DNA from: Halovivax cerinus
GTDB taxonomy: Archaea > Halobacteriota > Halobacteria > Halobacteriales > Natrialbaceae
Direction of reading: 5' to 3'
DNA length: 64,000 nucleotides
Assembly (NCBI RefSeq): GCF_024498195.1
Contig: NZ_CP101824.1
Span: forward strand, 1,798,001-1,862,000
Numbering within the stretch: position 1 is the first letter of the stretch; each line of letters starts with the position of its first letter. Shown here piece after piece: positions 2,537 through 24,708 of the stretch. The translations under genes were made by a program, and so were the position numbers. The notes below the pieces were generated by a model. It was not told the DNA's origin. It did no database searches and saw nothing but the letters and a program-made list of their open reading frames with translations.

Positions 2537-3016
2537 CTACAGGGCCTTCATCATCCTGTACATTTCGCGCCCTCCGTCTGTTTGCCACTCATACTCGATG
2601 TCGTACTCGATAGACGTCCAAAAGTTCACAGCGGGGGAGTCACAAGCGACATCAGCGCTGACTCTTTCTTGCCCGTGATACGTGGCGAACTCTTCTGCAT
2701 TTTCACACAGCCTGGCCGCAATCCCCTCCTCACGACGGTCTGGTGAAACAGCAACCAGACGAATCTGGGCTTCATCATCATCCAGCACGCGAGATTCACA
2801 CCAAACCATCAACGCGCCGACCAACGATTCATTGTCTTCAACATAGAATAACCGACGGTCGTCTCGGCTGAATGCCCTCGAAAGTGTCGTCCGGTACGTG
2901 AACCGGTGTAGCTCCTGTTTTATAACCTTTGAATTGAAAAACTCGTTGATGCGCGTGACATCTTCCTCTTCAGTTGCATGCTTGATCGTTATTGGTTCAG
3001 ATGTTGGCTTCTTCAT
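2537..3016 (-). CDS. GNAT-family N-acetyltransferase
   Basis: The 159-residue protein has a GNAT core: a beta strand around residues 83-90 (Ile-Arg-Leu-Val-Ala-Val) leads into the acetyl-CoA loop Arg-Arg-Glu-Glu-Gly-Ile-Ala (R/QxxGxG/A motif A), and the C-terminus has Pro-Ala-Val-Asn-Phe-Trp plus a Tyr-rich segment, as in motif B. It is the last gene of the eight-gene operon and overlaps the HerA-like gene by ATGA. The acceptor is unknown. Because the operon begins with a QueF-type enzyme that should make a primary amine on a 7-deazaguanine, one untested possibility is that this enzyme acylates that amine; it could equally be an immunity or housekeeping acetyltransferase. Confidence 0.85.
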   Translation of the reverse strand: MKKPTSEPITIKHATEEEDVTRINEFFNSKVIKQELHRFTYRTTLSRAFSRDDRRLFYVEDNESLVGALMVWCESRVLDDDEAQIRLVAVSPDRREEGIAARLCENAEEFATYHGQERVSADVACDSPAVNFWTSIEYDIEYEWQTDGGREMYRMMKAL

Positions 3017-4182
3017 GCCTCACCGCCTCCATGCATACTTTTGCGCGGTCGAATCTTTACCATCTGTACTGTCTCCTCCTCATCGTCGACATACACCGCC
3101 TCGCCGGTGTTGTTGATGTTCCGAACGTAGGTTTTCAGACTACCGCTCATGTAATCCTGGCTGAGTTTATTCAGTGACTTGATATCCTCCTGTGTTGTAA
3201 TTTTGTGACAAAGGATTACGTCACACTGGGAAAGGACGTCGCTATCAATCGCAGATGGTTGTTGGCTGGCCACTACAATCGACAGTCCCGGTTGGCGGCC
3301 CTCTTTCACCCATCGAATGATGGTGTCTTTTGCCAATGATGACTGCCCACTCGGCACAAAATTGTGTGCCTCGTCGATGAACAGCCACACCTTGGGAATG
3401 TCGATGCCAAGATTAAGCTCTTCGCGCCGGCGCGCAGCTTGACGACGCCGGAACAACTCCTTGCCGAGTACCTCCACGACGAGGTTTCGAAGCCCGTATT
3501 TCCCGGGTTCAATCACACTCATATCTAACACATTGATGCGATTTTCGTCGACAGTGTGGAAGATATCCTGATATGAATTAGCAAAGATTCCCCAGTCACC
3601 CGCCATCTCTAAACGATTCAGCAGTGCTTCACGTGTACGCTCACCCGCGTCACCGTCCATTTCTACTTTCTTGATGATGTCGCCCAGATAGAACGCCCCA
3701 TCTTCGTTGTCGTCATTGAGCTCACGGACAGCGCGATATAGCGCGATTCCCATCGGCTTGTTGATATTCAGATCGAACAGGTCACACCACCCATCAGGAG
3801 ACATGTCTGATGGATTTAATAATAATGGATTGATGTCGATACCTCGGCTTTCCAGTTCGCGGCGAACATCCGGGTCAAACCGTTCTTCTGGGTCACCAGG
3901 CACCAGCAAGTTTACCGGGAACGCTTCTTCGGACATCCCCCAGTCCCAGACGAGATCGCGCTGTTCGTCGTTTTCTTCGGCCATCGTCCAGTAAATCCCC
4001 ATTGGATCGATCACGAGCGGAACGACGTCATCACCCTCGGTGTGGATTTCTTCGACGATGTCGCCCATAGTGTAGCTTTTCCCGGTACCGCGTTTCCCGC
4101 AGGCCAAGATTGATCGGGCGCTGGAAGCGTCGATGTACGTGTCTGTACCATCTTCTATCTCTTCACCGATGAATAATTTCAT
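3013..4182 (-). CDS. HerA/DUF87-like P-loop ATPase
   Basis: The 389-aa protein has a Walker A GKRGTGKS at residues 29-36 and a Walker B with Phe-Ile-Asp-Glu-Ala-His-Asn-Phe-Val-Pro, the DEAHN signature of the HerA/FtsK group. It then has the Val-Ala-Ser-Gln-Gln-Pro sensor segment followed by Asp-Val-Leu-Ser-Gln-Cys, also typical of HerA. It lacks the long N-terminal HAS barrel of housekeeping HerA. It overlaps the PglZ-like gene upstream and the GNAT gene downstream by ATGA junctions. In defence systems such ATPases usually translocate DNA for a partner nuclease or modifier; the partner here is not obvious. Confidence 0.88.
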   Translation of the reverse strand: MKLFIGEEIEDGTDTYIDASSARSILACGKRGTGKSYTMGDIVEEIHTEGDDVVPLVIDPMGIYWTMAEENDEQRDLVWDWGMSEEAFPVNLLVPGDPEERFDPDVRRELESRGIDINPLLLNPSDMSPDGWCDLFDLNINKPMGIALYRAVRELNDDNEDGAFYLGDIIKKVEMDGDAGERTREALLNRLEMAGDWGIFANSYQDIFHTVDENRINVLDMSVIEPGKYGLRNLVVEVLGKELFRRRQAARRREELNLGIDIPKVWLFIDEAHNFVPSGQSSLAKDTIIRWVKEGRQPGLSIVVASQQPSAIDSDVLSQCDVILCHKITTQEDIKSLNKLSQDYMSGSLKTYVRNINNTGEAVYVDDEEETVQMVKIRPRKSMHGGGEA

Positions 4183-5288
4183 TTTGAATCACTATTGTTG
4201 CTAATTTCGATAAGGGGCACCACGGATTCGTGATAAGAGAATCCGCCATGTACCCCCCATTCTGTGTTTTTCAATTCCCGGGTCAGGTACGGATAGGCCA
4301 ACCCGGTCGCCGTGTCTCGGTCTGCGTCCTGTTCGGTCATGCCGTGTGCTAAGTCTTTATCGCCTTCGACAAAGCGAGCGTGGTCTTTCCAGTCCTCACA
4401 TACAACAGGCGGGTCATCTGGGAGATGGTCGCGCCATAGAATGCCGTGGTCGGCCGTAACGAAAATTCGGAAGTCATCTGTGATTCCCGCTGCGACATCG
4501 GCCAATTCATTGAGATCGGTAGCCAAGCTATCCCGAACGGCATCGTGATTAGGTTTCTCCTTTCGGTTGTGTGAGTCCTGATCGAATCCCATCCGGGTAA
4601 TCTGCACGTACGTCTTCTCATGGAGTGGTTGGTCTTCCTGAAGTTGAGTGAGACCCTGATCGAAATCATTGATTCGGTATACACTTTTTCCCATCGCAGA
4701 ATGCAGCTCTGTTGAGAGGTCTTCCTGACCGCGTTTCCAGTATGTAAACCCATAGGTGTTGTAGAATTCCTTGTCTGTCAGGGCCGCATAAACGGACATT
4801 TTATCGCCTCCATAGATGATGCGTCTAAACCCGGGCTCTGTTGTCGTTATGCCATCTACAATTACTGGCTGGACATCAAAATCAAGTGAGCGAACGGAAT
4901 CGTATGAGAGACCGTCTACAATGACCAGTACAACGAGGCTTTCAGTACTGACGGTGTTGAGGATGTACTCTTTTAGATTTGACTGACGGAGCAAACCCTG
5001 CCGAATCCGGTCGTGGTGTTCACGATTATCCCACTCAACTACCTCGTCGAGTACTGGGGTGATAGGATCGGCCGTACAGTCGATGCGGGGATAATCTGGA
5101 TGGCGGTCATCGGCGTCAAGAATGACATCCTGTTCAAATAAGAAGTCAGGATCATACAGGTCGCGGTGGAATTCCTGCTGTGAACGGTAGATGGCGAATT
5201 CATTTAGATAGAAGCTGGCGAGCGGGGGTAATACTGAAATGATTGGTGTGTCGCGTGCACGTTCTGCAATAGTATCGAATGTTGCCAT
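4179..5288 (-). CDS. PglZ-like alkaline-phosphatase-superfamily protein
   Basis: The 369-aa protein shows the metal-ligand scheme of PglZ. A strand ends in Val-Asp-Gly-Leu-Ser-Tyr-Asp (about residues 123-129), a second site is Thr-Ala-Asp-His-Gly (about 279-283), and near the C-terminus is His-Gly-Gly-Phe-Ser-Tyr-His-Glu-Ser. Canonical PglZ of Pgl/BREX is roughly twice this length, so this is a short form. PglZ is a hallmark of BREX, but no PglX methyltransferase is in the operon. It lies 2 nt after the large ATPase gene and overlaps the HerA-like gene, so the three are probably made together. Confidence 0.85.
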   Translation of the reverse strand: MATFDTIAERARDTPIISVLPPLASFYLNEFAIYRSQQEFHRDLYDPDFLFEQDVILDADDRHPDYPRIDCTADPITPVLDEVVEWDNREHHDRIRQGLLRQSNLKEYILNTVSTESLVVLVIVDGLSYDSVRSLDFDVQPVIVDGITTTEPGFRRIIYGGDKMSVYAALTDKEFYNTYGFTYWKRGQEDLSTELHSAMGKSVYRINDFDQGLTQLQEDQPLHEKTYVQITRMGFDQDSHNRKEKPNHDAVRDSLATDLNELADVAAGITDDFRIFVTADHGILWRDHLPDDPPVVCEDWKDHARFVEGDKDLAHGMTEQDADRDTATGLAYPYLTRELKNTEWGVHGGFSYHESVVPLIEISNNSDSK

Positions 5289-5290
5289 CC

Positions 5291-8200
5291 TTATCGACGA
5301 CCTCGTCGTTGCGTGATCTTGATATCTATTTGATTAAGTTTGAATAACTGCTCCATCCGGTCCAACAGCTCGTCAACCTCAATATTATCCCCGTCATCAT
5401 GATACTCCATCAACAACTCTTTGAAATCCGCACCGCGGTTGTTCTCCACGCGACGGAGGAGATCCTGCACCACATCATCATCCGGTTGGGATTGTGAACG
5501 GAATTTACGTGCTTGATCAGCCAACTCATTCGCCTTCGTGATTAGGTCGTTACCTTCCTCGGCCAGGTCTGTATCGTCACCAATATCCTCGAAATCGAAC
5601 CGTGAGAGCGACGTCCGGAGGCTTCGATGTGTCGCCTGTACCTGCTCAATCTCCTCTGCGACCCGGTCTGGATCAGCGTCGGTGTCAGCTTCGACACCAA
5701 CAATCTGCGCGTACTCAATCTCATTACGCGCGTTCTCGAGCTTACCCTCAGCGTTGTCCAGGACCTGACTCCTGTATTCACTCTTGAAGTCCTCAAGCAA
5801 ATGGCGACGCGACTCGTCAGGCTGCTTCACGTCGAAGGTCGCCGATCGTAGACCAACAGTCCCTCCCTCGGTGGCCTCATCGAGAATGGTTTTAAGTTTT
5901 TCACGCTTCGCATCGAACACGTCTCGCCGCTGTTCCCGTCGTTGCTGGTATGATTCCTCAATATGGCTGAGTCGCTCTTGGAACGCTTCCCGGTTCATCA
6001 AGGCATCCAGCGGATTCTCTACGAGCCGCTCGGCGATCTGTGCGATGAAGGCCTCAATATCATCCTCCTCATCCAACGCCTCATCAAACGTCCGCGAATA
6101 GTCTTTGATGTCCTGCTTGACGTTCGCAGACTTGTCGGTGAAAGTGCGCCACCGTTTCAATTCATCCCCGTAACTTTCCAGTTCATCAATCTCACTATCG
6201 ATGCTGTCGAGGCGGTCTCGTGCGTCCGCGACTTCTTGATGTAGATTGCTTGCTGCTTTGACTGTCGGAGAATTGTGCTTACGCCGTGCGTCTTCCAGTG
6301 TCTCAATCAGTTCAGACAGATCACTCTTGACACCGCGGAACTCTGCGAGCAACTCTGAACGAGCGTCATTTAGACCACCGACGAACTGAACACCACCGGC
6401 CACTTCCTTCTCCAAATGGTCCGGGATTAAACTACGCCGCTTTCGCTCGGCCTTAGTCTTGACATCATCGCACTCGGACTGATGATGCGAATGTAGGAGT
6501 TCACCAACTTCTTTGAGCCGCTCGATTCCATATTTCGCCTCAACATGCATCGCCTCTAGTTTTTCACTAGCGTCTGGATTCGTTTGCTCCAGTTCTGCTT
6601 CAAGCCCGTCAAGCTTCTCAGGCACGCCACTCGGCACTCGGTCTGGGTCTAACTCCTCGATTGTGTTCACGAGTCTGCGAGCGTCCGCGAGAGCGCTTTC
6701 AACGTCACCAATGGAGACATCAGCCTCCTGGATTATCAGCGCATCCGCAGTTTCGTTCAGACCGACAATGCCGCGAGCTTGCATGAACTGGTTGATCACA
6801 TCGATCTCTTCATCGCGGTATCCTTTCTCAAGTGCCATGTCCTCAACCTGTGTCAGAGGCAATTTATCCTCACTACCGGTTTCCAACCGGTCAAAGATCT
6901 CTTTCTCGAATGGATGCAACTCAGCGCGGACTTCGTAATCATCCGCACCATCATTCACCACGGTGAGGAGGTCATTGTAGTGTTTACGAATACGGCCGTC
7001 GAATGGTGAGGTCTTTCGCAGACCGAACCGTTCTGCAACATTCTCTTTAGGTTCTCGAAGCGTATCAGAACCTCGACGTTTTGAGATTGTGTCGAGAGAT
7101 GCGAGGAAGTCTGCATAATCCTGCATCATGTCCTTGTACTGCGTGCTAGTGATCACGGTGTGATAGTCTGGGTACAGGTTTTCCATTGCACTCGTGAACA
7201 GTCCCTTGACCGCACGCTTTCCGGAACGACGCAGTGTGACGGGTGCATTGTTGATGAGTGTCTCATCGAACATCGCCTTCAGTGCCTGGTCAAGGAGACT
7301 CTGCTGGAAAGACTCAACCCGATTTTCCTGCTGCGCATCTAATTCGGTGCTTGGGTCTTCGAGATACTGAACGAGCGCTAACATGAGGAAGGGCGTAACT
7401 GCATTGGGATCCATTGCATCCCGGAGGAAATCAAGCCCCTGCGGTAGCTCATCGAACGATTCCCGCCCATCAAGGACGAAGGTAAACTCCCGGTCTGACT
7501 CCTTTCTGATATGGGTTTTGTTGTTTTGGCTGTCACTGCTCTCCCATGTGAGCACGAAGTTGAACGCGAGCTCGGGGTCGCCAAAGTAGTCCCCAAGTGA
7601 CCCGTGTTCTCCGATGATCTCGTTTTGTTTTGTGTTATCACTTACGGCCACATTCAACCGTCGTTTCGGAAACCGCGTATCGAATGTGCCCTCGAATTGG
7701 TCCTTGTAGACGGTCTGCTGGATCTCGTTAAGGGGGGAACCGCCGTTGGTCCAGCCGTCAAGAGTGCCCCGTTTCGCCTCGAAAATGCCCTCATTCAATA
7801 ACTTGTTTGCTAGCGCATCAACGGCGTATTCAGCGCTTCCATGGCCGACGCTATATTCACGCCAGAAATCACGGATAAGCTGTTGCACAACGTCTTCTGG
7901 TCCGTCTCGTTTAGTGACGTCGATTAGCGTGTATCCGTCGGCGATTACCTTGATGACCTCACCGTGAATCTTCTTGGAGAGTGCATTCTGGGCATCGTTG
8001 AGTCCGTATTCGTCGACAACCTTATCTGGGATCCCCTCAACCGGGAAGACAGCACACAGTTTCAGGAAGGTTTCTTTGGCAGCCGTGTCTGCGGCCGAAT
8101 GATCTAACGCATCTCCGATTGCTGACTGGATTTTGGTGCTGGACCCCTGATACCGAACATTGCCCTCGAAGAAGGCTTCTGCAAAGTTCAAGGCGGTAAA

Positions 8201-9268
8201 GGTTTCCTGTGTGTTCAGGTACTGCTTGAGTGCTAGGCGGAAAATGTCAATAACGGTACGAGGGCCATTACTGAGATCGTTTCGAGAGCAGACTTCACCA
8301 GTGGCTGTGAGAGCGTGATTGCTGATGACATCGTATTGTCGGTTGGAGAAGCCGAAACGGTCAGCGTAGCGACTCCAGAGCTCCGCGGGGAATTCACGAC
8401 CATAGACCGTCTGAAGATTCAGAACGAGGTTATCTCGTTGGAGACGGTTCAGAATGTCTTCGGCCCGAGAGTCGAACGTGCTCTTCGTCTTCTCGGGCAT
8501 GGAGATGAACAGGCCGAATTCATCTCTGATTTGAGCGCCTGAGTGGAGTCCGAACACCAGCTGCCGGAAGCGCGACTCAGCGTCTTTCTGGTTGTCAGCA
8601 CTATTGAGATACTCTTGGAATTCGTCACCGACGACGACCAGGGCGTCAAACCCAGCGTCACGCGCAAGCTCGGTGCACTCATCGAAGAAGTCAATGAGTG
8701 TGTCCGCATTGATACTGAGGTCCAGATTGTTCTCCTGTTCCATCTCCTCAAACATCTGGACTAGCTTGTCAAAATCTAGGTCGTGCTGATCCTGCTTCTG
8801 TTTGGCTACCGTCTGAAGTTCCTGTTGAAGGAAACGTTCATGAATGTCGTCGACATCATCGACGTATCCTGGTGCCTTGTTCTCAAACTCGTATCGCATC
8901 CACCCATATGTGGCTCGCATGATGGCTGCGAACGAGTCCATCGTAAACGGCGGCACCGCAATTACATCCTGTTCACTCAGTGTGTTCCAGATACTTACCG
9001 CGGTACTGGTTTTCCCGTACCCATATGGGCCGTAGAGATAACCTTTGGCCGGGGAGTCTTGTTCAGCGACTTTCTCGTAAATTTCCTCCTCGAAGTCACT
9101 GGTGTCGCCGAGTGAAACGTGTGTGTTGGCGTACCGCCGGTACTCTTCTTCCACGGTCTCCGGTTCGGTTTCGAGGCTGCGTGCTTCGAAGGTGGAAATA
9201 ATCCCCTCGCTCTTGCGAACGAGGTCGAACAAGTCATCGACGTTCTCAGTCAGGGTTTGTGTGCTCAT
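5291..9268 (-). CDS. Very large P-loop ATPase with coiled coils (BrxC/PglY-like architecture)
   Basis: The 1325-residue protein has an N-terminal AAA-type ATPase with Walker A GPYGYGKT (about residues 80-87) and a Walker B strand Leu-Val-Val-Val-Gly-Asp-Glu-Phe (about 216-223). The middle is a long globular region; from about residue 830 on there are long charged helices predicted to be coiled coils, and the C-terminus is basic. Size, N-terminal ATPase and adjacency to a PglZ-like gene match the architecture of BrxC/PglY of BREX and Pgl, although motif-level homology cannot be shown by eye. Its ATG overlaps the stop of the small P-loop gene (9265-9268). It is the largest component of the candidate system. 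Confidence 0.85.
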   Translation of the reverse strand: MSTQTLTENVDDLFDLVRKSEGIISTFEARSLETEPETVEEEYRRYANTHVSLGDTSDFEEEIYEKVAEQDSPAKGYLYGPYGYGKTSTAVSIWNTLSEQDVIAVPPFTMDSFAAIMRATYGWMRYEFENKAPGYVDDVDDIHERFLQQELQTVAKQKQDQHDLDFDKLVQMFEEMEQENNLDLSINADTLIDFFDECTELARDAGFDALVVVGDEFQEYLNSADNQKDAESRFRQLVFGLHSGAQIRDEFGLFISMPEKTKSTFDSRAEDILNRLQRDNLVLNLQTVYGREFPAELWSRYADRFGFSNRQYDVISNHALTATGEVCSRNDLSNGPRTVIDIFRLALKQYLNTQETFTALNFAEAFFEGNVRYQGSSTKIQSAIGDALDHSAADTAAKETFLKLCAVFPVEGIPDKVVDEYGLNDAQNALSKKIHGEVIKVIADGYTLIDVTKRDGPEDVVQQLIRDFWREYSVGHGSAEYAVDALANKLLNEGIFEAKRGTLDGWTNGGSPLNEIQQTVYKDQFEGTFDTRFPKRRLNVAVSDNTKQNEIIGEHGSLGDYFGDPELAFNFVLTWESSDSQNNKTHIRKESDREFTFVLDGRESFDELPQGLDFLRDAMDPNAVTPFLMLALVQYLEDPSTELDAQQENRVESFQQSLLDQALKAMFDETLINNAPVTLRRSGKRAVKGLFTSAMENLYPDYHTVITSTQYKDMMQDYADFLASLDTISKRRGSDTLREPKENVAERFGLRKTSPFDGRIRKHYNDLLTVVNDGADDYEVRAELHPFEKEIFDRLETGSEDKLPLTQVEDMALEKGYRDEEIDVINQFMQARGIVGLNETADALIIQEADVSIGDVESALADARRLVNTIEELDPDRVPSGVPEKLDGLEAELEQTNPDASEKLEAMHVEAKYGIERLKEVGELLHSHHQSECDDVKTKAERKRRSLIPDHLEKEVAGGVQFVGGLNDARSELLAEFRGVKSDLSELIETLEDARRKHNSPTVKAASNLHQEVADARDRLDSIDSEIDELESYGDELKRWRTFTDKSANVKQDIKDYSRTFDEALDEEDDIEAFIAQIAERLVENPLDALMNREAFQERLSHIEESYQQRREQRRDVFDAKREKLKTILDEATEGGTVGLRSATFDVKQPDESRRHLLEDFKSEYRSQVLDNAEGKLENARNEIEYAQIVGVEADTDADPDRVAEEIEQVQATHRSLRTSLSRFDFEDIGDDTDLAEEGNDLITKANELADQARKFRSQSQPDDDVVQDLLRRVENNRGADFKELLMEYHDDGDNIEVDELLDRMEQLFKLNQIDIKITQRRGRR

Positions 9269-9741
9269 TGTTGGATCGGGGATGGTGCAGTATCAAGGTC
9301 CAAGCCAAGGTCTGCCCAGTTGGACGCGATCTCGGAGTAGTGTTCTTCTGCCGGACTTAATTCGACGCGAGGATACACTTCCTCGGCAGGGCGTTCGGTC
9401 ACATAGACGATCGTTGCCAAGCCGTTGATACTGGCGTGGTTGCGGAGTTTTCGTGTTGCGCGACGATCAGGGTTACCGTGGTCGTAGATGGTGGTGGGTG
9501 TGTTTGCATTGTCTGGAAGGGCTTGGTAGTAGGCCCAGTCGGAATCCTGCTGAAGAACCCAACACAGGAACGTTTTTCCGGCGTGTTGTGGGCCGTGCAG
9601 GTTGATGAACTTTGCATCATCTTCGCGGTGATCCTTGATAGCTGTCAGTGCCGCTTCCTGCGCATCAGTGAGCAGCTCACCACTGGCGGCTTGTTTGAGT
9701 GTGTTCATGCGTGTGAGGATTGTGGCATTAGGCGAGGTCAT
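9265..9741 (-). CDS. Small P-loop protein
   Basis: 158 aa with a clear Walker A, GPQHAGKT, at residues 50-57, followed by a short Rossmann-like core and no recognisable Walker B acid pair. Two starts are possible: the listed ATG (14-nt overlap with the upstream gene) or Met12 at 9708, which gives a clean 19-nt gap. It is sandwiched between the helical protein and the 1325-aa ATPase, as a switch or loader for the latter might be. Specific role unknown. Confidence 0.75.
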   Translation of the reverse strand: MTSPNATILTRMNTLKQAASGELLTDAQEAALTAIKDHREDDAKFINLHGPQHAGKTFLCWVLQQDSDWAYYQALPDNANTPTTIYDHGNPDRRATRKLRNHASINGLATIVYVTERPAEEVYPRVELSPAEEHYSEIASNWADLGLDLDTAPSPIQQ

Positions 9742-10552
9742 TGATTTCCACCGGGTCTGTCAGTCTGACCCTGAGTTGGTAATCTGATTGAATTGAGAGC
9801 CGTGCGTCCATTGACGCGACATGCTCAATAACATCTGTAACACTCTCTTCTTGGAGCAGCAGGATGGTGCAGACCGAGTCGATAGCGTCTCCTGTTAATT
9901 CCAGCAGATCGCCGTAGCCGATGGTTTCTGAAACAATATCCGTCCGGTAAAGGTGGTCAATAGTGGCCAAGACGACCTCCTTTTGAGCGAACGAACGAAG
10001 GGTGACTTCACCATCTTGGTAAACTGAAGGATCCAACAGTTCAATGAATCGTCGATAGTTGGTGAGGCTGGTATTACTGAGTGGGCCGTGGTCATTAAGA
10101 GCTTCATCAGGTGCGCCGTCAGCCTCTTCCATCACTGCCTCAACAACTTCCTGCTTGACATTGGTGAAGTCGGCCGGTGCACGACGGCGGAATTCGTCAC
10201 AAATGTGGTAATACGACCACGAGATGGCGCGGTCTGGGCTAGGATCTCGGTGATAGGCAGTAGCGTATGTGAAATGTAGCAGTTCGTAGAAAAGTTGTTC
10301 GTTGTATAGAAGGACTTCAACAACATCCCGGCCATAATCTGTGAGTTTCTGCCGGTTTTGATCGTTAACGAGGCCCAGTTTGGACAGAGTCGTTTCCATG
10401 TTCTTGGTGTTAACCAGATCGATCCCTGTTTCCTGATAGACATCATCCATCACGCCATTGAGTGAGGAGTAGGTACGCCTGTCGACGAAATCCAGGTAGT
10501 GCTTGATGACCTCGGGCCGATCTGAGGCACCTTCGATATGGAGCTTTGCCAT
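9728..10552 (-). CDS. Unknown 274-aa helical protein, possibly winged-helix
   Basis: Mostly alpha-helical with short beta pairs. Residues about 20-80 alternate helices with a Lys-Leu-Gly-Leu-Val turn and an Asp-Tyr-Gly-Arg strand, as in winged-helix domains. A Tyr- and Trp-rich central segment around residues 85-125 follows. I cannot assign a family. It starts 2 nt after the transglycosylase stop and overlaps the small P-loop gene, so it is an integral operon member and probably a DNA-binding or specificity subunit. That role is inferred only from context. Confidence 0.75.
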   Translation of the reverse strand: MAKLHIEGASDRPEVIKHYLDFVDRRTYSSLNGVMDDVYQETGIDLVNTKNMETTLSKLGLVNDQNRQKLTDYGRDVVEVLLYNEQLFYELLHFTYATAYHRDPSPDRAISWSYYHICDEFRRRAPADFTNVKQEVVEAVMEEADGAPDEALNDHGPLSNTSLTNYRRFIELLDPSVYQDGEVTLRSFAQKEVVLATIDHLYRTDIVSETIGYGDLLELTGDAIDSVCTILLLQEESVTDVIEHVASMDARLSIQSDYQLRVRLTDPVEINDLA

Positions 10553-10554
10553 GG

Positions 10555-11595
10555 CTAGATGCTGACCTTCTTTTTATTGGGTGATGTGACTTTCTTCAGA
10601 CGGCGTCGATACGTAGACTTTTCATCCATAGCCTCTAGAATCTCTTCACGAGTCATATCTTCGACTTTATTAGTCATATCTTGGATGACAATGAGATTGT
10701 GCATGACCCGATTCCAGCGGGAGGAACTGAGCTGTGACATTTCCTCACAGAACGGACACTCATGGCCGGTTTCTGCCTTGAGGTGCGGTAGTTCATCTTT
10801 AGTTAGCACTTTTCCGCTGCGGTTTTTCCGATGTGAGGCGTTGTACCGGCTCTTGAAAGGGAAGAACACGTTTCCGTACCCGCTGGAACGCATCCAACTG
10901 GTGGTGTCGAAACTATCGACACCAGCATGATACAGGAGTGGGATGCTCGTTGGCCCACCGACCCCGAATGCGTGAACGCTGAGTCCGGCCTCATGCGCCT
11001 GTTGTACTGCCCATTCAAGATGATAATAGGCTTCGGTGGTGAGCATGTTGACACCGTTGCTAACACCGCTTGTGCCGAAGCTCCCGAAGCCCACATGCTG
11101 GAGCCCATCAAGTGAGGCGTATTTATTCAGGCAGTGTTGAAGTTGATCCTGTGTGTGACCCTGAACGACCGCGAGGGCGCGCGACTGAAGCGCATCAGGC
11201 ATCTGCCTGTAGAACAACGCAGAGATATCCGCGGTTTGCTTTACCTTCTGTTCGACAACATCTGGCGAGTCCTGTGAGACAGGAACATTATCAGGGAGGA
11301 CGTAGCGATGCCCCCAGTGGTTGTCGGCGTAGAAGTCGTGCAGATATGCTTGTAAATCGTCAAATGTATTATTACCAACCTGAACTTCGTAGCCACCGGA
11401 ATCGAACATGATGTTGATGCCGAGGTGGTCATTCAGATTTCGAATAGTTTGATGTGCTTCCTCGCCACCTGAAATAGGAGTAAACATGATATTTTCCAGC
11501 GGCTCAAGTGACCCATAGCCATCTTCCAGTTTGGAGAAGGTCTTTCGCATTGAGCTTGGTGAGACGCTCAGGGCAGCGTAAAAAGTGAATGTCAT
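10555..11595 (-). CDS. DpdA-like guanine (7-deazaguanine) transglycosylase
   Basis: 346 aa of the tRNA-guanine transglycosylase fold. Visible features are Asp-Ser-Gly-Gly-Tyr (residues 65-69; DSGGF in TGT), Gly-Val-Gly-Gly-Pro (211-215), the nucleophile region Val-Asp-Ser-Phe-Asp (226-230; cf. VDMFD) and a metal site with Cys280, Cys283 and His299-Asn300. It has no PUA domain, so a tRNA role is less likely. DpdA enzymes of this family exchange guanine in DNA for preQ0-derived bases. It overlaps a QueF gene by ATGA (11592-11595), which matches a DNA 7-deazaguanine pathway fed by preQ0 from the host's archaeosine pathway. No queC, queD, queE or folE lies in the window. Confidence 0.85.
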   Translation of the reverse strand: MTFTFYAALSVSPSSMRKTFSKLEDGYGSLEPLENIMFTPISGGEEAHQTIRNLNDHLGINIMFDSGGYEVQVGNNTFDDLQAYLHDFYADNHWGHRYVLPDNVPVSQDSPDVVEQKVKQTADISALFYRQMPDALQSRALAVVQGHTQDQLQHCLNKYASLDGLQHVGFGSFGTSGVSNGVNMLTTEAYYHLEWAVQQAHEAGLSVHAFGVGGPTSIPLLYHAGVDSFDTTSWMRSSGYGNVFFPFKSRYNASHRKNRSGKVLTKDELPHLKAETGHECPFCEEMSQLSSSRWNRVMHNLIVIQDMTNKVEDMTREEILEAMDEKSTYRRRLKKVTSPNKKKVSI

Positions 11596-12020
11596 CGTTC
11601 AGATGGAATCCGTGATAGATCGTCTGCTCTGCTTTGGCGACTCTCAGGAATGTCATCCGTTAGTTCACCGTAGTCAACTGTGACGTCGGTGGTGATGCCG
11701 CCACGCGTGTTGAACTGGCCAGTGACTCGCATCCACCGTGGGCTGGACACTTCCACCAGATCCGTGAGAATTTGGTTGACAGCTGGTTCGTGGTAGATTT
11801 CGACGTTTCGATACGATCCGAGGTAAAGCTTGAGCGATTTGAGTTCTACGATGACTTCATCGGGCACATATTCGATGATGATTGTACCAAAGTCTGGTTG
11901 TGATGGCTTCTCAGGGCAGAGACACGTGAATTCTGGTGCGACAACCTCAATACGTGTGTTCCGTTTAGGATACTCATTCGAGATTGCGCTCAAATGGGTT
12001 GGGTCAATTTCGTCGTTCAT
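11592..12020 (-). CDS. queF: QueF-type 7-cyano-7-deazaguanine (preQ0) reductase
   Basis: 142 aa, T-fold family. Catalytic elements are all present: Glu-Phe-Thr-Cys-Leu-Cys-Pro (nucleophile Cys35), Gln-Pro-Asp (Asp43), the NADPH motif Glu-Leu-Lys-Ser-Leu-Lys (59-64) and the substrate-binding His77-Glu78 pair. There is one extra residue between Cys and Asp compared with bacterial QueF. The known reaction reduces the preQ0 nitrile to the aminomethyl group of preQ1. Haloarchaea make archaeosine rather than queuosine, so a QueF here is out of place for tRNA and fits modification of DNA by the adjacent DpdA-like enzyme. It is the first gene of the eight-gene operon. Confidence 0.88.
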   Translation of the reverse strand: MNDEIDPTHLSAISNEYPKRNTRIEVVAPEFTCLCPEKPSQPDFGTIIIEYVPDEVIVELKSLKLYLGSYRNVEIYHEPAVNQILTDLVEVSSPRWMRVTGQFNTRGGITTDVTVDYGELTDDIPESRQSRADDLSRIPSER

Positions 12021-12748
12021 ATTAGCGTTGTTGTCTGTTTGTTAGCCGGTGGTGCAGCTTCCTGGTGAGTAACGTAGTCTCACTCATTCAGTTCTGGATT
12101 ATTCTTAGACTAAACCGGTATCCTGTTGGGAATGTCGGAGTTCGTGAAGGCGCACACATTCCAGTTCAATGGAAGGATACTAACGGGCCATTTATAATTC
12201 CATTGGCCAGTAATCACTATTGACGCTCTGAATCAAGATTCAAAATTGATTTTAATTAGATATGGAATAAAAAGTTAGAATTTAGAAGCCTGATGGTTCC
12301 TGTATAACTACAGCAATAGATACAATCCCTCCGAGACGACCTGCGGCCGTTCGTCGAAACTGTCTTTTCGTAGAGTGATTAGCATCACAACTGCAGTCAG
12401 ACGGCTCTCTGTACAACAATCAGAGGATGCCCGAAATATGCTTCTCCGTCGTAAAGCGTTCGCATGGCGGGGAATGCAAGCGTAAGCTTCGTACCGTAAA
12501 TTTTGAGAATGCGTGCTCAGATTTGCCGTTTTAAATATTAAACAAGTTTGTTCAGCACTATGCACCCACTGCTGACTCTCTACTCAACCAAGTACTCCGA
12601 TCATTTAGAAATAGACCTTATAAACCCAAATGACTCGTAATGACTAATGTTATCGAGTCAGTCATCTTTGACCGTTTCCTGTCATGGTCTGGTCTCGCGG
12701 ATTTGAATCTCGAAATATGTATGAGGTTTGGCTACACACCAGAGAGCC
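12021..12748. other. AT-rich intergenic region between the two QueF-fold genes
   Basis: About 730 bp without a convincing gene; the only frame over 80 codons (12308-12565, minus) looks like chance. It should hold the divergent promoters. A TATA-like stretch near 12708-12718 lies 35 nt before the ATG at 12749; none is clear for the minus operon at 12020. Several A/T runs (12190-12290, 12525-12545) are present. The segment at about 12686-12706 resembles a tRNA T-arm and is discussed under rejected items. Confidence 0.5.
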
Positions 12749-13135
12749 ATGTGTGCAGAATCCTTGACGGATGATCGACGTGAAGACGTTTTGGATGGGT
12801 TTGAGGCACCCGAATCAGATGCAAATCAGGTGTATACATTTAATTCATCGGAGTTGACTGCTCTTTGTCCCTTTGATTTTGGCGGTCCGGATTACTACGA
12901 ATTCACCCTTCGGTACATTCCAGATAAAATGTGTGTTGAGAGCAAGAGCCTAAAACAGTATCTTGAGTCTTTCCGAGATGTGGAGATTACGGGTGAAGAA
13001 ATTGGGGCGGAGATGTACGATGCATTTGACCAACTGTTGGATCCGAAATCCATATACCTCCGTCTTGAACAGGCCCGTCGTGGCGGTATCGAAGAAACTG
13101 TCGAGTACGGCGATCGGTCATTATCACCGAATTAG
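12749..13135 (+). CDS. QueF-fold protein with altered active site (QueF-like/amidinotransferase-type candidate)
   Basis: 128 aa from the ATG at 12749; a TTG at 12728 is less likely. It has Leu-Cys-Pro (Cys40), Gly-Pro-Asp (Asp48), the Glu-Ser-Lys-Ser-Leu-Lys motif (64-69) and a Glu at 83 aligned with the QueF substrate-binding Glu. The preceding His of the His-Glu pair is replaced by Gly (Gly82). Loss of that residue with Cys and Asp kept recalls QueF-like enzymes that act on preQ0 without the normal reduction. It lies divergent from the operon carrying the canonical QueF. It may act on the modified base or on a different precursor; this is inference. Confidence 0.75.
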   Translation: MCAESLTDDRREDVLDGFEAPESDANQVYTFNSSELTALCPFDFGGPDYYEFTLRYIPDKMCVESKSLKQYLESFRDVEITGEEIGAEMYDAFDQLLDPKSIYLRLEQARRGGIEETVEYGDRSLSPN

Positions 13136-13277: not shown

Positions 13278-13643
13278 CTATATTTCAATACTTACTGGGT
13301 AAGGTACTTTGACGGTGTCTTTGCCTAGTGAGAGTGCTTTGTATGTTTCCCCAAATCGGTCCTGTACGATCATCGTCGTTGAACGATCTTTCATACGGAA
13401 GATGCCATAATGGGTGTAGGTATCCGTGTTTAATGCTTGGAGATCAACAGGAGGGGAATCATCTAATGATCCGATCTCAGTTACTTTCCCCTCATCAATG
13501 GTCGGTTCCTGACTTTTTAGAAATTTGAGTTGATATACTTTCTCCCCAGATTTACCGTCTCTTTGCTTTTCATCAGGAGATCTTTTCGAGTCAATATCAC
13601 TCAAAGACAAACCACTCTCATGTTGATCATCTCGTTCACTCAT
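13278..13643 (-). CDS. Unknown 121-aa protein
   Basis: The first 35 residues are charged and disordered (Ser/Asp/Lys-rich); the remainder alternates short beta strands, suggesting a small beta-rich domain. The ATG at 13643 is supported by a TATA-like TTAATATA about 27 nt upstream. It is convergent with the QueF-fold gene and divergent from the 14091 gene. No family recognised; it could be an accessory part of either neighbour. Confidence 0.6.
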   Translation of the reverse strand: MSERDDQHESGLSLSDIDSKRSPDEKQRDGKSGEKVYQLKFLKSQEPTIDEGKVTEIGSLDDSPPVDLQALNTDTYTHYGIFRMKDRSTTMIVQDRFGETYKALSLGKDTVKVPYPVSIEI

Positions 13644-15243: not shown

Positions 15244-16959
15244 CTACTCTGCTGCTTCCTCTACCTGCAGCAGCTGATCCTCTTCCAACTTTAGAAGGCT
15301 CGCAGACTTCTTCACCAGATAATCCCTGTAGTCTATAATATTCTCGGGTGTCCAATCATCATACTCCTCAACGACACGACGAGTTAAATCAAAGTTCGTT
15401 GCCTCGCGGTCTTCAGCTACCGATGCTAAGGTACTGTCACTCCCCATGTAGTGAGCCGCCTTCGTTGGGAATGACTTTTGCTGAACCGTTTCGTGGACCT
15501 CCTGCTCCAAGGGTATCAAATTACCTAGGCTGTGTCTCAACTTAGCAGCCTCTTCAGCAGAGAAGTTTTCCCGCCAATACTGCTCGTTCTCCATCGCAGT
15601 AGTGAATTTCTTAGGTAGAATGTGCTCACGGTGCAGTTCCTGGCCAGGCTCAATCTCACTGGTCTTCATATCTGGAGTGAACCGGTACTCGATGGCGAGG
15701 AGAAGTGGTCGATGCCAGCTAGCTTCGTAAACGTCGGAGCCCAGATTGTTCCGCACCTTCTGAGCAATGTTTTTGCTGCTGCGGTCCTCCTCGATGTACT
15801 CCCAGACCTCATTGAGACTTCCACCATCCTTAATCAGGCTCAAGAGATCGTAAGACGGATTCTTGATTTTTGCGCTGGTATGACCTCCGACCCAATAGGA
15901 GTAGTACATAGCGACCAAGGCATCCACCAAGCCCTCGTAATCCTCGAACCCTTGCTTCTTTGCTGTGGTGAGCAAGGTTTTCCAGTACTGAGTGTGCTTC
16001 AGATTTGAGAGCATGAACATCTCCCGCGACTGGTCATTTTCCACACTCAGGAACTCCTCCGCGTACCTATCGATGTCCCTGGCCAGTTCCACGACAGATG
16101 TCTCCCCTTGCAGCGTTGAATCGAACTCCTCTTTCAACTCCTCGTAGATGGATGATTCTGCCCGTGTTTCCTGAAGATAGAGACGGTAGCTGGATAGGAG
16201 GTTGTCCAACCGACTGTAGTTATCGTCGAACTTGCTGGAGAGCTTTTTCCAGGACTCCGTCACCGTCTTTCGCTGTTCATCGTTCGAGGTGAGACTGAGA
16301 AGGTAGCTCTTGGTCAGGTCGGATACAGTGAGATCCTTCCCTCGCGTATTCGCCGTCTGGAATAACCGGATAGCATACGAAAGATCCGATGTCTCAATCT
16401 GTATGATCTCAACCTCCAGTTCAACAAAGTCGTAGAAGTCCCTCAGTTCCTCTGGATCCTCGAACTTGTCCTTCAAGGCGTTCTTGGTGTACTTCGCCGC
16501 GTCCGTGTAGTTGTTGTCCTCACTCAGGTCGACACCAGATAGGATAGTGGTCTCAAACTCGTCCTGATGCTTCTCACCTGTCCGTAACCTGTACGTAGAG
16601 TCATCACCTGAAGAGTCCTCCAACCGGCGTTCTATCGTACCCATTTGAGACGCCAGTTCTTCACTATAGAAGTCACGGAGGACAGCATAGAAGATCACCA
16701 ATGTAGTGATCCGCTGCTGACCGTCCAGGACATCCAGTCTCTTCTCACCGTTGTCTACCAGAATTACTGTCCCCAAGAAATACGAGTCATCACCGTTATT
16801 CTCTGCGTTCCAGGCCTCGTAAAGGTCATCCCAGAGCTGATCGATATGTCTTTTCTCCCAGCTGTACGGTCGCTGGTACTCCGGAATCTTGTACAGGGTC
16901 TTCCTGCCCTCGAAAAGATCACAGATATCCGCCGGTTCTGCGTCGAATTGGCTAGCCAT
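15244..16959 (-). CDS. GmrSD-type modification-dependent (type IV) restriction enzyme
   Basis: 571 aa from the ATG at 16959, preferred over the upstream TTG because a TTTTAT box lies about 28 nt before it. The N-terminal DUF262 half has Tyr-Gln-Arg-Pro-Tyr-Ser-Trp (near residue 29) and Leu-Asp-Gly-Gln-Gln-Arg-Ile-Thr (near residue 78), the ParB-like nucleotide-binding motif. The C-terminal DUF1524 half has His-Arg-Glu-His-Ile-Leu-Pro, the HNH-type nuclease motif, and Ser-Leu-Gly-Asn-Leu. Fused GmrS-GmrD proteins cut DNA with modified bases such as glucosylated hydroxymethylcytosine. It stands alone here. Whether it avoids the host's own presumed 7-deazaguanine mark is an open point. Confidence 0.9.
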   Translation of the reverse strand: MASQFDAEPADICDLFEGRKTLYKIPEYQRPYSWEKRHIDQLWDDLYEAWNAENNGDDSYFLGTVILVDNGEKRLDVLDGQQRITTLVIFYAVLRDFYSEELASQMGTIERRLEDSSGDDSTYRLRTGEKHQDEFETTILSGVDLSEDNNYTDAAKYTKNALKDKFEDPEELRDFYDFVELEVEIIQIETSDLSYAIRLFQTANTRGKDLTVSDLTKSYLLSLTSNDEQRKTVTESWKKLSSKFDDNYSRLDNLLSSYRLYLQETRAESSIYEELKEEFDSTLQGETSVVELARDIDRYAEEFLSVENDQSREMFMLSNLKHTQYWKTLLTTAKKQGFEDYEGLVDALVAMYYSYWVGGHTSAKIKNPSYDLLSLIKDGGSLNEVWEYIEEDRSSKNIAQKVRNNLGSDVYEASWHRPLLLAIEYRFTPDMKTSEIEPGQELHREHILPKKFTTAMENEQYWRENFSAEEAAKLRHSLGNLIPLEQEVHETVQQKSFPTKAAHYMGSDSTLASVAEDREATNFDLTRRVVEEYDDWTPENIIDYRDYLVKKSASLLKLEEDQLLQVEEAAE

Positions 16960-17218
16960 GAGAAACAGTCGGAGTAACTTCAAATAAAATCTATGCTACA
17001 GGTGTCACGCGGCTACCCCGAAAAATCCGGAAGAAATTCGATGGGGGAGAGGGGTTGTTGTCACGGAGACATGACAAAAGGGGATGTTCACACCTCCCCC
17101 CTTCCCAGAAAACTCGTTGAACACAGAGGGATTTCTCGAAAACCAAGAGGGCCCAACCCCCGCTATTGTAAGAGAGTATCCAGTACCGTTATCCGATGTG
17201 CCAACGATCTTTACAATA

Positions 17219-18794: not shown

Positions 18795-20168
18795 TCAATT
18801 CGTTTTAATGAATGTAGCAATTCGATCTGGTGAAAGACCAATTTCTGACAGAATGACGATATTGAAAATAATTGCGAGATTCTCTGATCGTCGGTACAGC
18901 GCAAAGGACGAGTTCTGAGTTCCTTCAAGCAAAGAGTCTATACTCGAATGAGCTTCTGAAACCCAGTCTACTACTTGGTCTGGTACCTTGGAGGCCGTGT
19001 CGGAGTGACGTTCAAATATCTCCTCCAATTGTACGTCAAACGACTTTTCTGTTTCCTCGCCGAGGAGCGCCTTTATTGTATCATAGTCTGCCTGTGGCTC
19101 CTCAAAGCCAGTGTGATCAAGGGACGGGCCACCGGGTTGATTTGCGCATATTCGGGTACGATAGTAGGCTTCTAGGGTCGCACGTCGAAGAAGGTACATT
19201 GTAATAAGGTCAGGGTCGTCATAGATTGTTTTAAAATATATGTTGAGTACCGGCGCTAACTCTTCAAATGACTTTATCCATGTATCTAAGACCGACTCAA
19301 ATTCCTCTTCTATATCTGGTAATAAGAAGAGCAACTCCTGTGGATGTGAATTTTCAGAAACCGTGTCTTCAGCAGAGCTATTCGTTAGGATCTCCACTGA
19401 GGCTTCAGGTTGCTCGCCGCCTGATTCATAGTACCCCGTAATCTCGATCGGTTGAACCGGTTCTTGAAGCCCTAATGCGAGGAATAACTGTATTTTTCGT
19501 AGTACTGTTTGTGTTCGGTTTAGCGAAATCGTGTCCTCACTCCATCTTGGACCAACCTCTATCGATGTAGTCTCTGAAAATTTCACTGTTGTGCTTCTCC
19601 CACGCTCAACTGTGATTCCTGGATCGAAGTGAACCGTGAGATCATCAGAAACAACGGTTTCAGAATCTGGGTACGTGTACTGCGCGCTAACAACTGGCTC
19701 TGAAGCCTGTTTTTCAACTGTGCCGTTCGTCTCTTGCTCCCCTGCGTCTGGATCGAGATCAAGGTTGAGGCCGCTCCGTGAGAACCACCGATGAAGCGCC
19801 TCGAGCTGCATCCCAACTGATTCGAATTGGATCTCATCGTGAAAATGCTCACCAAGCAGTGCCCTCGTAACTAAGAACGTCTCTGGACGGATTACTTCTG
19901 AACCGTTTACAACTCGCTTAAACGTCCGCTGGCATGTATCGAGCGTAACGCGATCCCCGTCATCGGTAATCCCAAGGATTCGGTCGACAACTGGTGGTTC
20001 ACCATCTTCACTTATCTTAAACGCATCCGACGCGTGGTGGGTAAGGGAATCGAAAACATCCAATTCAAGCCCATCCGTTGGATGATAGGAGAGCACACCG
20101 CCGACGACCCTTTCATCACGATTCCCGGGAAGCCACCAATGGCCGCGTAAGTCACGCTGGTCGTGCAT
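18795..20168 (-). CDS. apeA-like: ApeA-like protein (ApeA N-terminal domain, HEPN-type C-terminus)
   Basis: 457 aa. The N-terminus (Leu-Arg-Gly-His-Trp-Trp-Leu-Pro-Gly then Val-Gly-Gly-Val-Leu-Ser-Tyr) matches the opening of the ApeA N-terminal domain, and residues about 160-290 form the usual beta-rich region. The C-terminal third is helical as in HEPN domains. ApeA is a single-gene antiphage protein whose HEPN part is a presumed RNase. The expected Arg-x4-6-His RNase motif is not evident: where it should be (about residues 405-440) I read Ser-Glu-Ala-His-Ser-Ser and Tyr-Arg-Arg-Ser-Glu-Asn. It overlaps its upstream neighbour by 17 nt, so it may work as a pair. Confidence 0.75.
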   Translation of the reverse strand: MHDQRDLRGHWWLPGNRDERVVGGVLSYHPTDGLELDVFDSLTHHASDAFKISEDGEPPVVDRILGITDDGDRVTLDTCQRTFKRVVNGSEVIRPETFLVTRALLGEHFHDEIQFESVGMQLEALHRWFSRSGLNLDLDPDAGEQETNGTVEKQASEPVVSAQYTYPDSETVVSDDLTVHFDPGITVERGRSTTVKFSETTSIEVGPRWSEDTISLNRTQTVLRKIQLFLALGLQEPVQPIEITGYYESGGEQPEASVEILTNSSAEDTVSENSHPQELLFLLPDIEEEFESVLDTWIKSFEELAPVLNIYFKTIYDDPDLITMYLLRRATLEAYYRTRICANQPGGPSLDHTGFEEPQADYDTIKALLGEETEKSFDVQLEEIFERHSDTASKVPDQVVDWVSEAHSSIDSLLEGTQNSSFALYRRSENLAIIFNIVILSEIGLSPDRIATFIKTN

Positions 20169-22355: not shown

Positions 22356-24017
22356 TCAGAGGGCAGTGTCGTCTACGTCGTCTTCTTCTTCGTCGTAGGC
22401 GTTGACGACGCTTCGGTTCTGTTCTTCATTGTGTGTTTCCCAGCTTGTGCGCCATTCCGACGTCGCATTGAGGCTGTCCGCGCCGTGTTCGGTGTGGCGG
22501 TGCCGGATGCGTGTCAGTACGGGGGTGTTCATTGCGTCGCCGGAGATGACTGCTTGGCCGGGGGTGAGGCCGGGGAGTTCGTCGAGGACGTCTTGGCCGG
22601 CGCTTTCGACGGATTGCTGGATGGCTTGTTGGTCGTTCGGGTTCTGGATCTGCATGATGACTTGGGTACCGCATTGGGAGAGAACGTCGGCGTCGAGTTT
22701 CGAGGGGCGTTGAGAGATGATGCCGACACCGAAGCCGAACTTGCGGCCTTCGGAGAGGATTGTTCGGAGAATGCCGAGTGACCGTGCGTTGCCGTCGGGG
22801 GCGAAGCGGTGGCCTTCTTCGAGGAGTGTGAACAGCGGGAAGTCGAGTCGGTCATCGTCGCCCCGCATCGCTTCCTCGCGGGCTTCGTACAGTTTTCGGA
22901 GGAGTGCGGCGGCAAGCATCTGCTGATCGTCTTTCGACAGTTGGTTGAGTTTGAGTACAGTCACTTGGCCCGGTGCGACGAGGTCCGTCAAATCCTCACG
23001 GGCGGCGCGAACGAATAGGTCACGGCCGAGTGCGCGTTGAATCCGCCACTCCAGTGCTTCTGCAGTGTCACTCTGCTCGCCGTCCTCCTCATAGCATGTC
23101 CGGACGAGGTCGTGAGCGCTGATGTCGTTTGTTTCCTGTTGGAGTTTGCGCCAGGCTTTCTGGAGGATGTATTTCATTTTGTCACTCGGGCCATCCAAGA
23201 GTGCGAGGAGATCGCCGTAGTTGAGGTCGGGGATGGCAATTGTGATCTCGTCCGGTTGGACGATGTTGACCTCCGGGGTGTAGTCACCGTCGCTAAATAC
23301 GTCCTCGTACTTTGATTTCCGCATATCTTCGAGTGTGTCATATTCGCCGTGCGGGTCGAAGACGAGCATGGCGGCGCGGGAGGACGGCCGCATCATTTCT
23401 TCCATAATGACGCTCGCGGTGTAGGATTTCCCGCTGCCTGTCGACGCGAGGATGGCGAGGTGGGTTGAGGCGAATTCGTCAATGGGGAGGAAGACGTTCG
23501 CGTCGCGTGCTGGCCGATTGAGCAGCCAGCCGACGTGGGCGAGTCCGGCGTCACTTTCCCAGTCTGCGTTTGGAAGGACAGCTTCGAGGAAGGCGTTGTT
23601 GGCAAGGTAGACGCGTGATCCGGGGTCAGGGAGTGATCGCGGGTTGGTGAACGTCCCCATGTCGTCGTTGAAGTACCCGATGATGCGTGCGGTCACGCTG
23701 TTTAGTTCGACATCGCCAGTGGGGACGCCGAGGGCGTCGGCGACGGCGTCGGAATCGACGCCCGGGTTGGCGAGGAAGTCACCAGGGAGGCCGCGTTCCT
23801 GTTCGGTGTTTGTGACGCGGGCGAGAACGTTGTGGTGTTCGCCTTCGACGGTCGTGTTGTACACGATGAACTCGCCCGTCCGGACGTCGATGTCGTTCGG
23901 GGCGATGAACTGAAACTCGTCGGCGGAATCGCCGGGTTGTTCGACGGTCCCGACGACCGTGTCCGATGCGGCAGGTACATTTCGATTCTGCGGCGGGTCG
24001 GGCAGGTCGTTGCTCAT
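22356..24017 (-). CDS. herA: HerA-type bipolar DNA helicase/translocase
   Basis: 553 aa. Residues 1-130 have the small-beta-strand pattern of a HAS barrel. Walker A STGSGKS lies at 192-198 and is followed by the conserved Asp-Pro-His-Gly-Glu-Tyr. Where HerA usually has DEAH, the Walker B here reads Leu-Leu-Glu-Glu-Gly-His-Arg-Phe-Ala-Pro. The arginine finger/sensor part Ile-Ser-Gln-Arg-Pro-Ser-Lys-Leu-Asp-Ala-Asp-Val-Leu is intact. HerA partners NurA and Mre11-Rad50 in resecting DNA ends. It is the last gene of the mre11-rad50-nurA-HAS-herA operon (ATGA overlap with the HAS gene) and has a disordered acidic tail. Confidence 0.9.
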   Translation of the reverse strand: MSNDLPDPPQNRNVPAASDTVVGTVEQPGDSADEFQFIAPNDIDVRTGEFIVYNTTVEGEHHNVLARVTNTEQERGLPGDFLANPGVDSDAVADALGVPTGDVELNSVTARIIGYFNDDMGTFTNPRSLPDPGSRVYLANNAFLEAVLPNADWESDAGLAHVGWLLNRPARDANVFLPIDEFASTHLAILASTGSGKSYTASVIMEEMMRPSSRAAMLVFDPHGEYDTLEDMRKSKYEDVFSDGDYTPEVNIVQPDEITIAIPDLNYGDLLALLDGPSDKMKYILQKAWRKLQQETNDISAHDLVRTCYEEDGEQSDTAEALEWRIQRALGRDLFVRAAREDLTDLVAPGQVTVLKLNQLSKDDQQMLAAALLRKLYEAREEAMRGDDDRLDFPLFTLLEEGHRFAPDGNARSLGILRTILSEGRKFGFGVGIISQRPSKLDADVLSQCGTQVIMQIQNPNDQQAIQQSVESAGQDVLDELPGLTPGQAVISGDAMNTPVLTRIRHRHTEHGADSLNATSEWRTSWETHNEEQNRSVVNAYDEEEDDVDDTAL

Positions 24018-24685
24018 CTGACCACCCCGCGGTCGCTGCTCGTTTCCCAGCGGACTTTCTGCTCGATGACGTCCAGGAGCTCCTCGTCAGCGGCGGTCCC
24101 GTCGCGGAGCTGGTCGAGGAGAGCAAGCGTCACCTCGGCCCCGAATTGGTCGGCTGTGGAGATAAGCCGGTCGTAGTACTGTAGCCGGAGATCGCCGTCG
24201 GGGAAGTGGAACTGCTCGAAGCCTGCTCGCGGGAGCTTGCGGATCGAGTCATCTATTTCGAGTGTCCACGGCGGCATTTCTTGCGAGACATCCGTGAAGT
24301 TCGACCCGTTTGAGGCGGGTTCAAGGGTTGCGTAGCCGAGAAACGCGACACCGAGGAGTGTGCGTTTCTCGTCGACGTATCCTGGGACGAACAGTTCTTG
24401 ATCCGGGTTCGAGAGGCGAGGGCCGGCGCGGCCTTGGTCAGGGTCGACGAGCCGTGAATCGTAGACCACGCCGATAAGGGCGTACTCGGTCCCACGAATT
24501 GTCGTGGTTGTGTACACTGGCTGCCCGAATTTGTAGTCCTGTTTCTCAGGCGGACGTTCGCGCTCACGTTCGCGGTACACTTCGACGACATAGTCCATTT
24601 GCGAGTGCGACTCGGCAACTGTTCCAAGAGTGAGGTCGTTTGCAGTGATCACCGGTGCATCGTCGGTTGAGGTTGTCTGTGTCAT
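24014..24685 (-). CDS. HAS-barrel-like accessory protein of the HerA-NurA operon
   Basis: 223 aa. The N-terminal 110 residues alternate short beta strands with loops in the HAS-barrel style; the C-terminal 80 residues are helical (Leu-Gln-Tyr-Tyr-Asp-Arg, then Leu-Ala-Leu-Leu-Asp-Gln). It sits between nurA (23-nt gap) and herA (ATGA overlap), so it is likely an adaptor for the NurA-HerA complex. No enzymatic motif is visible. Naming it HAS-like rests on context and strand pattern. Confidence 0.6.
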   Translation of the reverse strand: MTQTTSTDDAPVITANDLTLGTVAESHSQMDYVVEVYRERERERPPEKQDYKFGQPVYTTTTIRGTEYALIGVVYDSRLVDPDQGRAGPRLSNPDQELFVPGYVDEKRTLLGVAFLGYATLEPASNGSNFTDVSQEMPPWTLEIDDSIRKLPRAGFEQFHFPDGDLRLQYYDRLISTADQFGAEVTLALLDQLRDGTAADEELLDVIEQKVRWETSSDRGVVR

Positions 24686-24708
24686 GATGACTTAATTTGG
24701 TGTCTGTG

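Follow-up and report, generated by a model that had tools for sequence, protein, structure and literature searches.

A probable BREX-Related Capture-type defence operon with preQ0 reductase (QueF) genes in Halovivax cerinus

In this study, we analyzed a 64,000-nt stretch of the Halovivax cerinus genome (the window) and found an operon that is very probably a BREX-Related Capture (BRC)-type defence system. A BREX-like core is joined in it to a 7-deazaguanine transglycosylase module, as a sequence-only reading of the same DNA had proposed and as family searches and conserved gene order support. The operon is a new find only in part: its core gene set is known, and the QueF genes, a link to Druantia and a 121-aa gene are new. 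We lean toward a reading in which the self mark is a preQ1-type base and the BREX-like side restricts unmarked DNA.

Layout, setting and identity of the operon

All eight minus-strand ORFs of the sequence-only reading (2537-12020) are present, and the divergent second gene of the QueF fold is borne out. The components are:

2537-3016, minus strand: GNAT acyltransferase gene (Pfam 3.3e-10; subfamily HMM)
3013-4182, minus strand: HerA/FtsK-type DNA translocase gene (Pfam DUF87 4.6e-12; PADLOC HerA 5e-24, mad8 2e-22)
4179-5288, minus strand: short PglZ gene, alkaline-phosphatase-fold effector (PADLOC 7e-7; family profile; alignment)
5291-9268, minus strand: giant BrxC-like ATPase of the AAA+ class, 1325 aa long and with a coiled coil (PADLOC BrxC 4e-4; Pfam BrxC_BrxD in the family)
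9265-9741, minus strand: small P-loop NTPase, STAND/BrxB-like, with the Walker A motif GKT (conserved columns in relatives)
9728-10552, minus strand: BrxA/DUF4007-like protein, helical or winged-helix and presumed to bind DNA (position and family shared with all relatives)
10555-11595, minus strand: TGT/DpdA-like guanine transglycosylase that consists of just the TGT catalytic domain (Pfam TGT 1.8e-10; AF2 model; family profile)
11592-12020, minus strand: QueF1, type I preQ0 reductase (preQ1 synthase) (Pfam QueF 6e-33; NCBIfam QueF-II; motifs)
12728-13135, plus strand: QueF2, second preQ0 reductase, divergent, of another lineage (Pfam 2.9e-18; above the QueF-II cut-off; tree)
13278-13643, minus strand: small conserved protein of 121 aa, an accessory that we propose as the ninth component in haloarchaea (co-occurrence with BRC)

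The genes meet in the 4-nt overlaps or 2-nt gaps that had been described, with the exception of one 14-nt overlap (9728-9741). Searches with each protein gave strong family matches for GNAT, HerA, the TGT/DpdA-like enzyme and both QueFs; PglZ and BrxC were weak as single sequences and became clearer with family profiles. The single PglZ sequence reached Pfam 0.003 and PADLOC 7e-7, whereas its family profile matches a solved PglZ (9zn5, E 0.0026), and the metal-site motifs VDG, DHG and HGG are kept. In the giant ATPase family, Pfam BrxC_BrxD is found in five of nine members (best 2.3e-6) and the Walker A GKT is invariant. Against PDB sequences, the profiles of BrxC, the small NTPase and DUF4007 gave just coiled-coil, generic P-loop and weak winged-helix matches, and an NCBIfam scan of the operon gave no names to the helical and P-loop proteins. 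In one haloarchaeal relative (L021:12913-14022), PglZ no longer has the DHG Asp or the HGG His and is possibly an inactive effector.

The operon sits inside a low-GC defence island. Over roughly the first 36 kb of the window GC is mostly 0.43-0.61, and past that mostly 0.60-0.69; the TGT is missing from the four other genomes of the same genus in our Halobacteria survey, which is consistent with horizontal gain. Insertion of the island at the tRNA-Phe gene (36178-36251) was considered and set aside because the 24-base tRNA end occurs just once in the genome, so that no attachment repeat is shown. The surroundings include a GmrSD-type (type IV-like) restriction protein beside the operon (15244-16983, minus strand, Pfam 9e-38), an ApeA-like antiviral protein (18795-20168, minus strand, Pfam ApeA_NTD1 1.7e-31) and a cluster at 22356-30040 (minus strand) with HerA-like and NurA (Pfam 2.5e-23) proteins, which encloses a 223-aa ORF and also holds putative Rad50 and Mre11 proteins named by sequence appearance. 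An Eco57I-like N6 adenine methyltransferase lies close to the island edge (33538-35826, plus strand).

The earlier claim that no described system has this gene set fails, since BRC, a system known from comparative genomics only, was published with the same core set (NAR, January 2026; PMC12839542). BRC is reported from 45 taxa, including three archaeal classes, and comprises PglZ, a BrxC-like ATPase, a STAND NTPase, DUF4007 and a universal HerA/FtsK translocase, with GNAT and TGT in a subset (PMC12839542). The operon combines PglZ, a BrxC-like ATPase, a small NTPase, a DUF4007-like protein, HerA, GNAT and TGT, and it is assigned to BRC by HerA, the short PglZ, GNAT and TGT, which match directly. 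For BrxC/DUF6079, the family carries the BrxC_BrxD matches given above and Pfam DUF6079 has none; for DUF4007, a homologous family is present in all loci, yet Pfam DUF4007 gave no match to any of 15 members; and for an active STAND NTPase, the Walker A G-K and Asp87 are invariant in 17 members, the STAND subclass aside. QueF and the 121-aa gene are extra in the operon; the BRC paper mentions neither QueF nor Druantia, and the 121-aa gene is not among its seven components (PMC12839542).

Two other kinds of system resemble the operon. Dpd (DpdA-K; Salmonella Montevideo type) likewise has a TGT-family enzyme presumed to set a 7-deazaguanine self mark in DNA; in contrast, the effector side of the operon is BREX-like, and PADLOC matched no DpdB, DpdC or Dpd helicase among the operon proteins or the ten neighbouring ORFs scanned. 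BREX/Pgl shares the core of PglZ and a BrxC-like ATPase, but the operon is without the PglX/BrxX methyltransferase and has HerA, GNAT, TGT and QueF in addition; neither Pfam nor PADLOC found a methyltransferase within 2537-13135, the nearest being the Eco57I-like enzyme. The operon is therefore neither Dpd nor BREX, because the defining genes are absent.

Our survey of 391 Halobacteria genomes found eight with a BRC TGT, and a Haloplanus plasmid carries a ninth locus. All nine haloarchaeal loci share one gene order: TGT, DUF4007-like, small NTPase, BrxC, PglZ, HerA, GNAT. The search for recurring gene order that the sequence-only reading had suggested thus found eight other loci, each with a QueF gene (directly upstream of TGT in six, at the GNAT end in two), so the operon is no chance assembly. 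Scanning with the BrxC family gave 27 loci, spread over haloarchaea, cyanobacteria, Chloroflexi, Desulfotomaculum and proteobacteria. A profile search added one more complete locus (L143), from a genome that belongs to the phylum of the haloarchaea but to a different taxonomic order; the label "methanogen-type" for this locus is a guess from the content of its genome. In four Chloroflexi BRC loci (L031, L032, L041, L043), a gene upstream of TGT encodes a protein that has both an RNA polymerase alpha-CTD and a sigma-70 region 4 domain.

The 121-aa gene occurs in six Halobacteria genomes, five of the eight with BRC versus one of the 383 others, and also adjoins the plasmid locus (L014). It appears to track the BRC system and is a candidate ninth component of the operon. 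A single-sequence structure model of the protein (pLDDT 39) gave no usable fold.

QueF in haloarchaeal BRC loci

Motif alignment shows the catalytic Cys35 and Asp43 and the NADPH motif ELKSLK of QueF1 to be intact, and the protein scores 146 bits against the NCBIfam QueF-II equivalog (cut-off 86.9). QueF2 keeps an intact NADPH motif, ESKSLK, and is also above this cut-off. All ten BRC QueFs retain both catalytic residues, Cys and Asp, as well as the NADPH motif E-x-K-[SA]-[LI]-[KR]; judged by these motifs, they look like preQ0 reductases rather than QueF-L amidinotransferases. QueF is obligate in haloarchaeal BRC loci. An above-cut-off QueF was found in 11 of the 391 genomes, that is, in 8/8 with a BRC TGT and 3/383 others (Fisher p about 1e-14, uncorrected for kinship). 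Every time it lies inside the locus, in the eight genomes as in all nine loci including the plasmid, and the host genome has no copy outside its locus.

The haloarchaeal TGTs form one clade (99/98) and their QueFs about three lineages, which indicates that QueF was acquired anew repeatedly. QueF1 of the window groups with five other BRC QueFs (100/100), QueF2 falls with those of L014 and L021 within a halovirus/provirus group (97/92), and the L022 QueF stands alone on a long branch. From these trees, the simplest reading would be one TGT lineage that needs QueF throughout and swaps copies. A further QueF (L135:9460-9912) has a provirus-like setting, with a 246-aa protein adjoining and putative MCM, PCNA and C5 methyltransferase neighbours, named by sequence appearance.

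The halovirus HVTV-1 resembles the operon in its QueF homolog, its haloarchaeal setting and its 7-deazaguanine DNA, in which dPreQ1 replaces about 30% of G; it differs in that the virus modifies its own genome, without DpdA and without a restriction system (PMC6884629). Such DNA could be a target. The module might sense or attack foreign DNA, with TGT engaging viral DNA and licensing PglZ/HerA, and without self-marking. The dPreQ1 of HVTV-1 DNA (PMC6884629) and the QueF genes of haloviruses, HCTV-1 too, would agree with this, as would the kinship of QueF2 with virus and provirus QueFs. However, sensing would need no QueF, yet QueF is obligate, and the modification enzymes of BREX, Dnd and Dpd serve self protection. 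We therefore consider this explanation very improbable.

As to the supply of preQ0, the plasmid locus is flanked by the preQ0 genes queC, queE and queD, and in another genome (G134) QueC lies 2.4 kb from QueF. Two haloarchaeal genomes with a locus (G245 and G289) are without full-length QueC, so import of preQ0 would be required. Outside the haloarchaea, the complete genome of L143 contains GNAT-TGT and no QueF, and most Chloroflexi TGT-positive genomes, which are fragmentary MAGs, have neither QueF nor full-length QueC. A universal need for QueF is ruled out by these genomes, and GNAT is not everywhere reliant on a QueF-made amine. The genomes without full-length QueC may import bases, or their chemistry may differ. 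In the L143 locus (L143:18530-20000 and L154:530-2226), overlapping the HerA end, we found a homolog of the 2-hydroxyglutaryl-CoA dehydratase D component (HGD-D, 9e-24) and a BcrAD/BadFG (BadF/BcrA-type) ATPase (4.5e-33). As a speculation from one locus, this ATP-driven low-potential reductase pair could in principle stand in by reducing the preQ0 nitrile.

The BRC paper suggests dPreQ0 alone as the base (PMC12839542). GNAT would then act on another substrate, such as a protein partner, and the haloarchaeal QueF would have a side function, lowering free preQ0 or shifting the base balance. The occurrence of TGT-GNAT without QueF in L143 and most Chloroflexi genomes speaks for this explanation. 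Nevertheless, we regard it as unlikely, for the haloarchaeal QueF is obligate, intact, re-acquired more than once and nearly absent from other Halobacteria. In haloarchaea, preQ1 rather than preQ0 is the base that we consider fairly likely.

The transglycosylase and its GNAT partner

The AF2 model of the TGT (pLDDT 91.4) can be overlaid on archaeosine TGT (1iq8), with Z 27.7 and 2.6 A over 294 residues. Only residues 22-351 of the 577-residue 1iq8 chain are covered, which means that the operon TGT lacks the C-terminal part found in the archaeal tRNA enzyme. Asp65, Asp102, Asp230 and H-x-C-x2-C...H are invariant in the family and fit the catalytic and zinc sites, the residue mapping being inferred. 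The target of this enzyme is probably DNA. The family profile, searched against PDB sequences, has one TGT-superfamily match, the DNA-guanine transglycosylase DpdA 7ui4 (E 0.0027). In addition, the host genome has a separate full tRNA-type TGT match (E 4e-80, C1:17970), which makes a housekeeping role for the operon TGT unlikely.

An enzyme that acts on tRNA or another RNA, for example one placing preQ1 in anticodons as translation control or as an abortive response, would set no DNA mark. It would agree with the structure search, where tRNA TGTs rank top and are all of the best fold matches, and with the DpdA models, which match the TGT at 2e-5 to 7e-5 (PADLOC 7e-5), far under the NCBIfam cut-off, and are beaten by the Pfam TGT score. 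On the other hand, the model aligns with the catalytic part of ArcTGT only, DpdA is the sole match of the family profile within the superfamily, the operon partners are DNA-handling proteins and the host owns its tRNA TGT. Overall, we find an RNA target quite unlikely. A phage origin of the TGT was also considered and rejected, as no match was found in phage records and none was confirmed in viral contigs.

TGT and GNAT are closely linked. A GNAT of one subfamily is present in 27 of the 28 TGT loci, eight of which have it as an N-terminal fusion to TGT, and the operon GNAT belongs to the same subfamily as the domain fused to TGT in bacteria. The lone locus without GNAT (L041) is cut by a contig end, and L031 from the same isolate has the gene; none of four TGT-less relatives carries GNAT. 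In three TGT-less loci (L042, L045 and L047), DUF4007-small NTPase-BrxC is preceded by an McrB-like AAA_5 protein together with a DUF2357/PDDEXK_7 nuclease (Pfam on L047 only).

Exchangeable effectors and the proposed mark

The effector side is exchanged as a unit. Relatives of the GNAT-TGT-DUF4007-BrxC block occur with PglZ/HerA, the set found in the window, in 14 loci, and in bacteria adjoin Druantia (PADLOC DruE/DruL/DruF) in 11 (L015, L024, L025, L027, L028, L029, L036, L038, L040, L044 and L048); no locus has both, and three are undecided. The TGT tree requires two changes of partner. Such block swapping indicates that a marking and sensing block is separate from the effector block. Our literature search found no paper linking Druantia with a tRNA-guanine transglycosylase.

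For the favoured preQ1-type mark, we propose the following mechanism. preQ0 is present in the host, where it is made for archaeosine, and QueF would reduce it to preQ1, which to our knowledge haloarchaea do not otherwise make. Guanine in host DNA would next be replaced with preQ1 (or preQ0) by the TGT/DpdA-like enzyme, for which the DUF4007-like protein, the small NTPase and BrxC are probable helpers, and GNAT may complete the mark by acylating the 7-aminomethyl or another group of the base. Finally, a complex of BrxC, small NTPase, DUF4007 and PglZ would inspect incoming DNA, with HerA pumping the DNA and PglZ cutting that without the mark. Against a preQ1 mark, the Eco57I-like methyltransferase in the island could be the real self mark.

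Self-marking by base exchange, as the sequence-only reading had it, is supported as the probable reading, and an acylated 7-deazaguanine as a possible product; the BRC paper, too, proposes 7-deazaguanine or acyl self marks (PMC12839542). We consider acylation of the base plausible yet somewhat doubtful, and not universal. Tentatively, QueF, a DNA-acting TGT and GNAT might together make an N-acylated preQ1 mark (7-acylaminomethyl-7-deazaguanine) in cellular DNA. The GNAT-TGT-DUF4007-BrxC block would then be a marking and sensing unit portable between PglZ/HerA and Druantia, and organisms without QueF would have a substitute for this enzyme, as HGD-D/BcrAD may be in L143. Phage DNA contains further 7-deazaguanine bases, including acylated forms, on which this reading does not draw.

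We know of no PglZ-type system for which marking by base exchange has been demonstrated, and the sole 7-deazaguanine mark in cellular DNA known to us is the preQ0/ADG pair of Dpd. The base-making genes of the operon point to a DNA mark so far unreported in any cell, and the obligate QueF predicts preQ1-type bases in host DNA. preQ1 would be a possible chemical substrate for the GNAT of BRC, whose presence is otherwise unexplained, and the exchange between PglZ/HerA and Druantia would make self-marking and killing separable modules.
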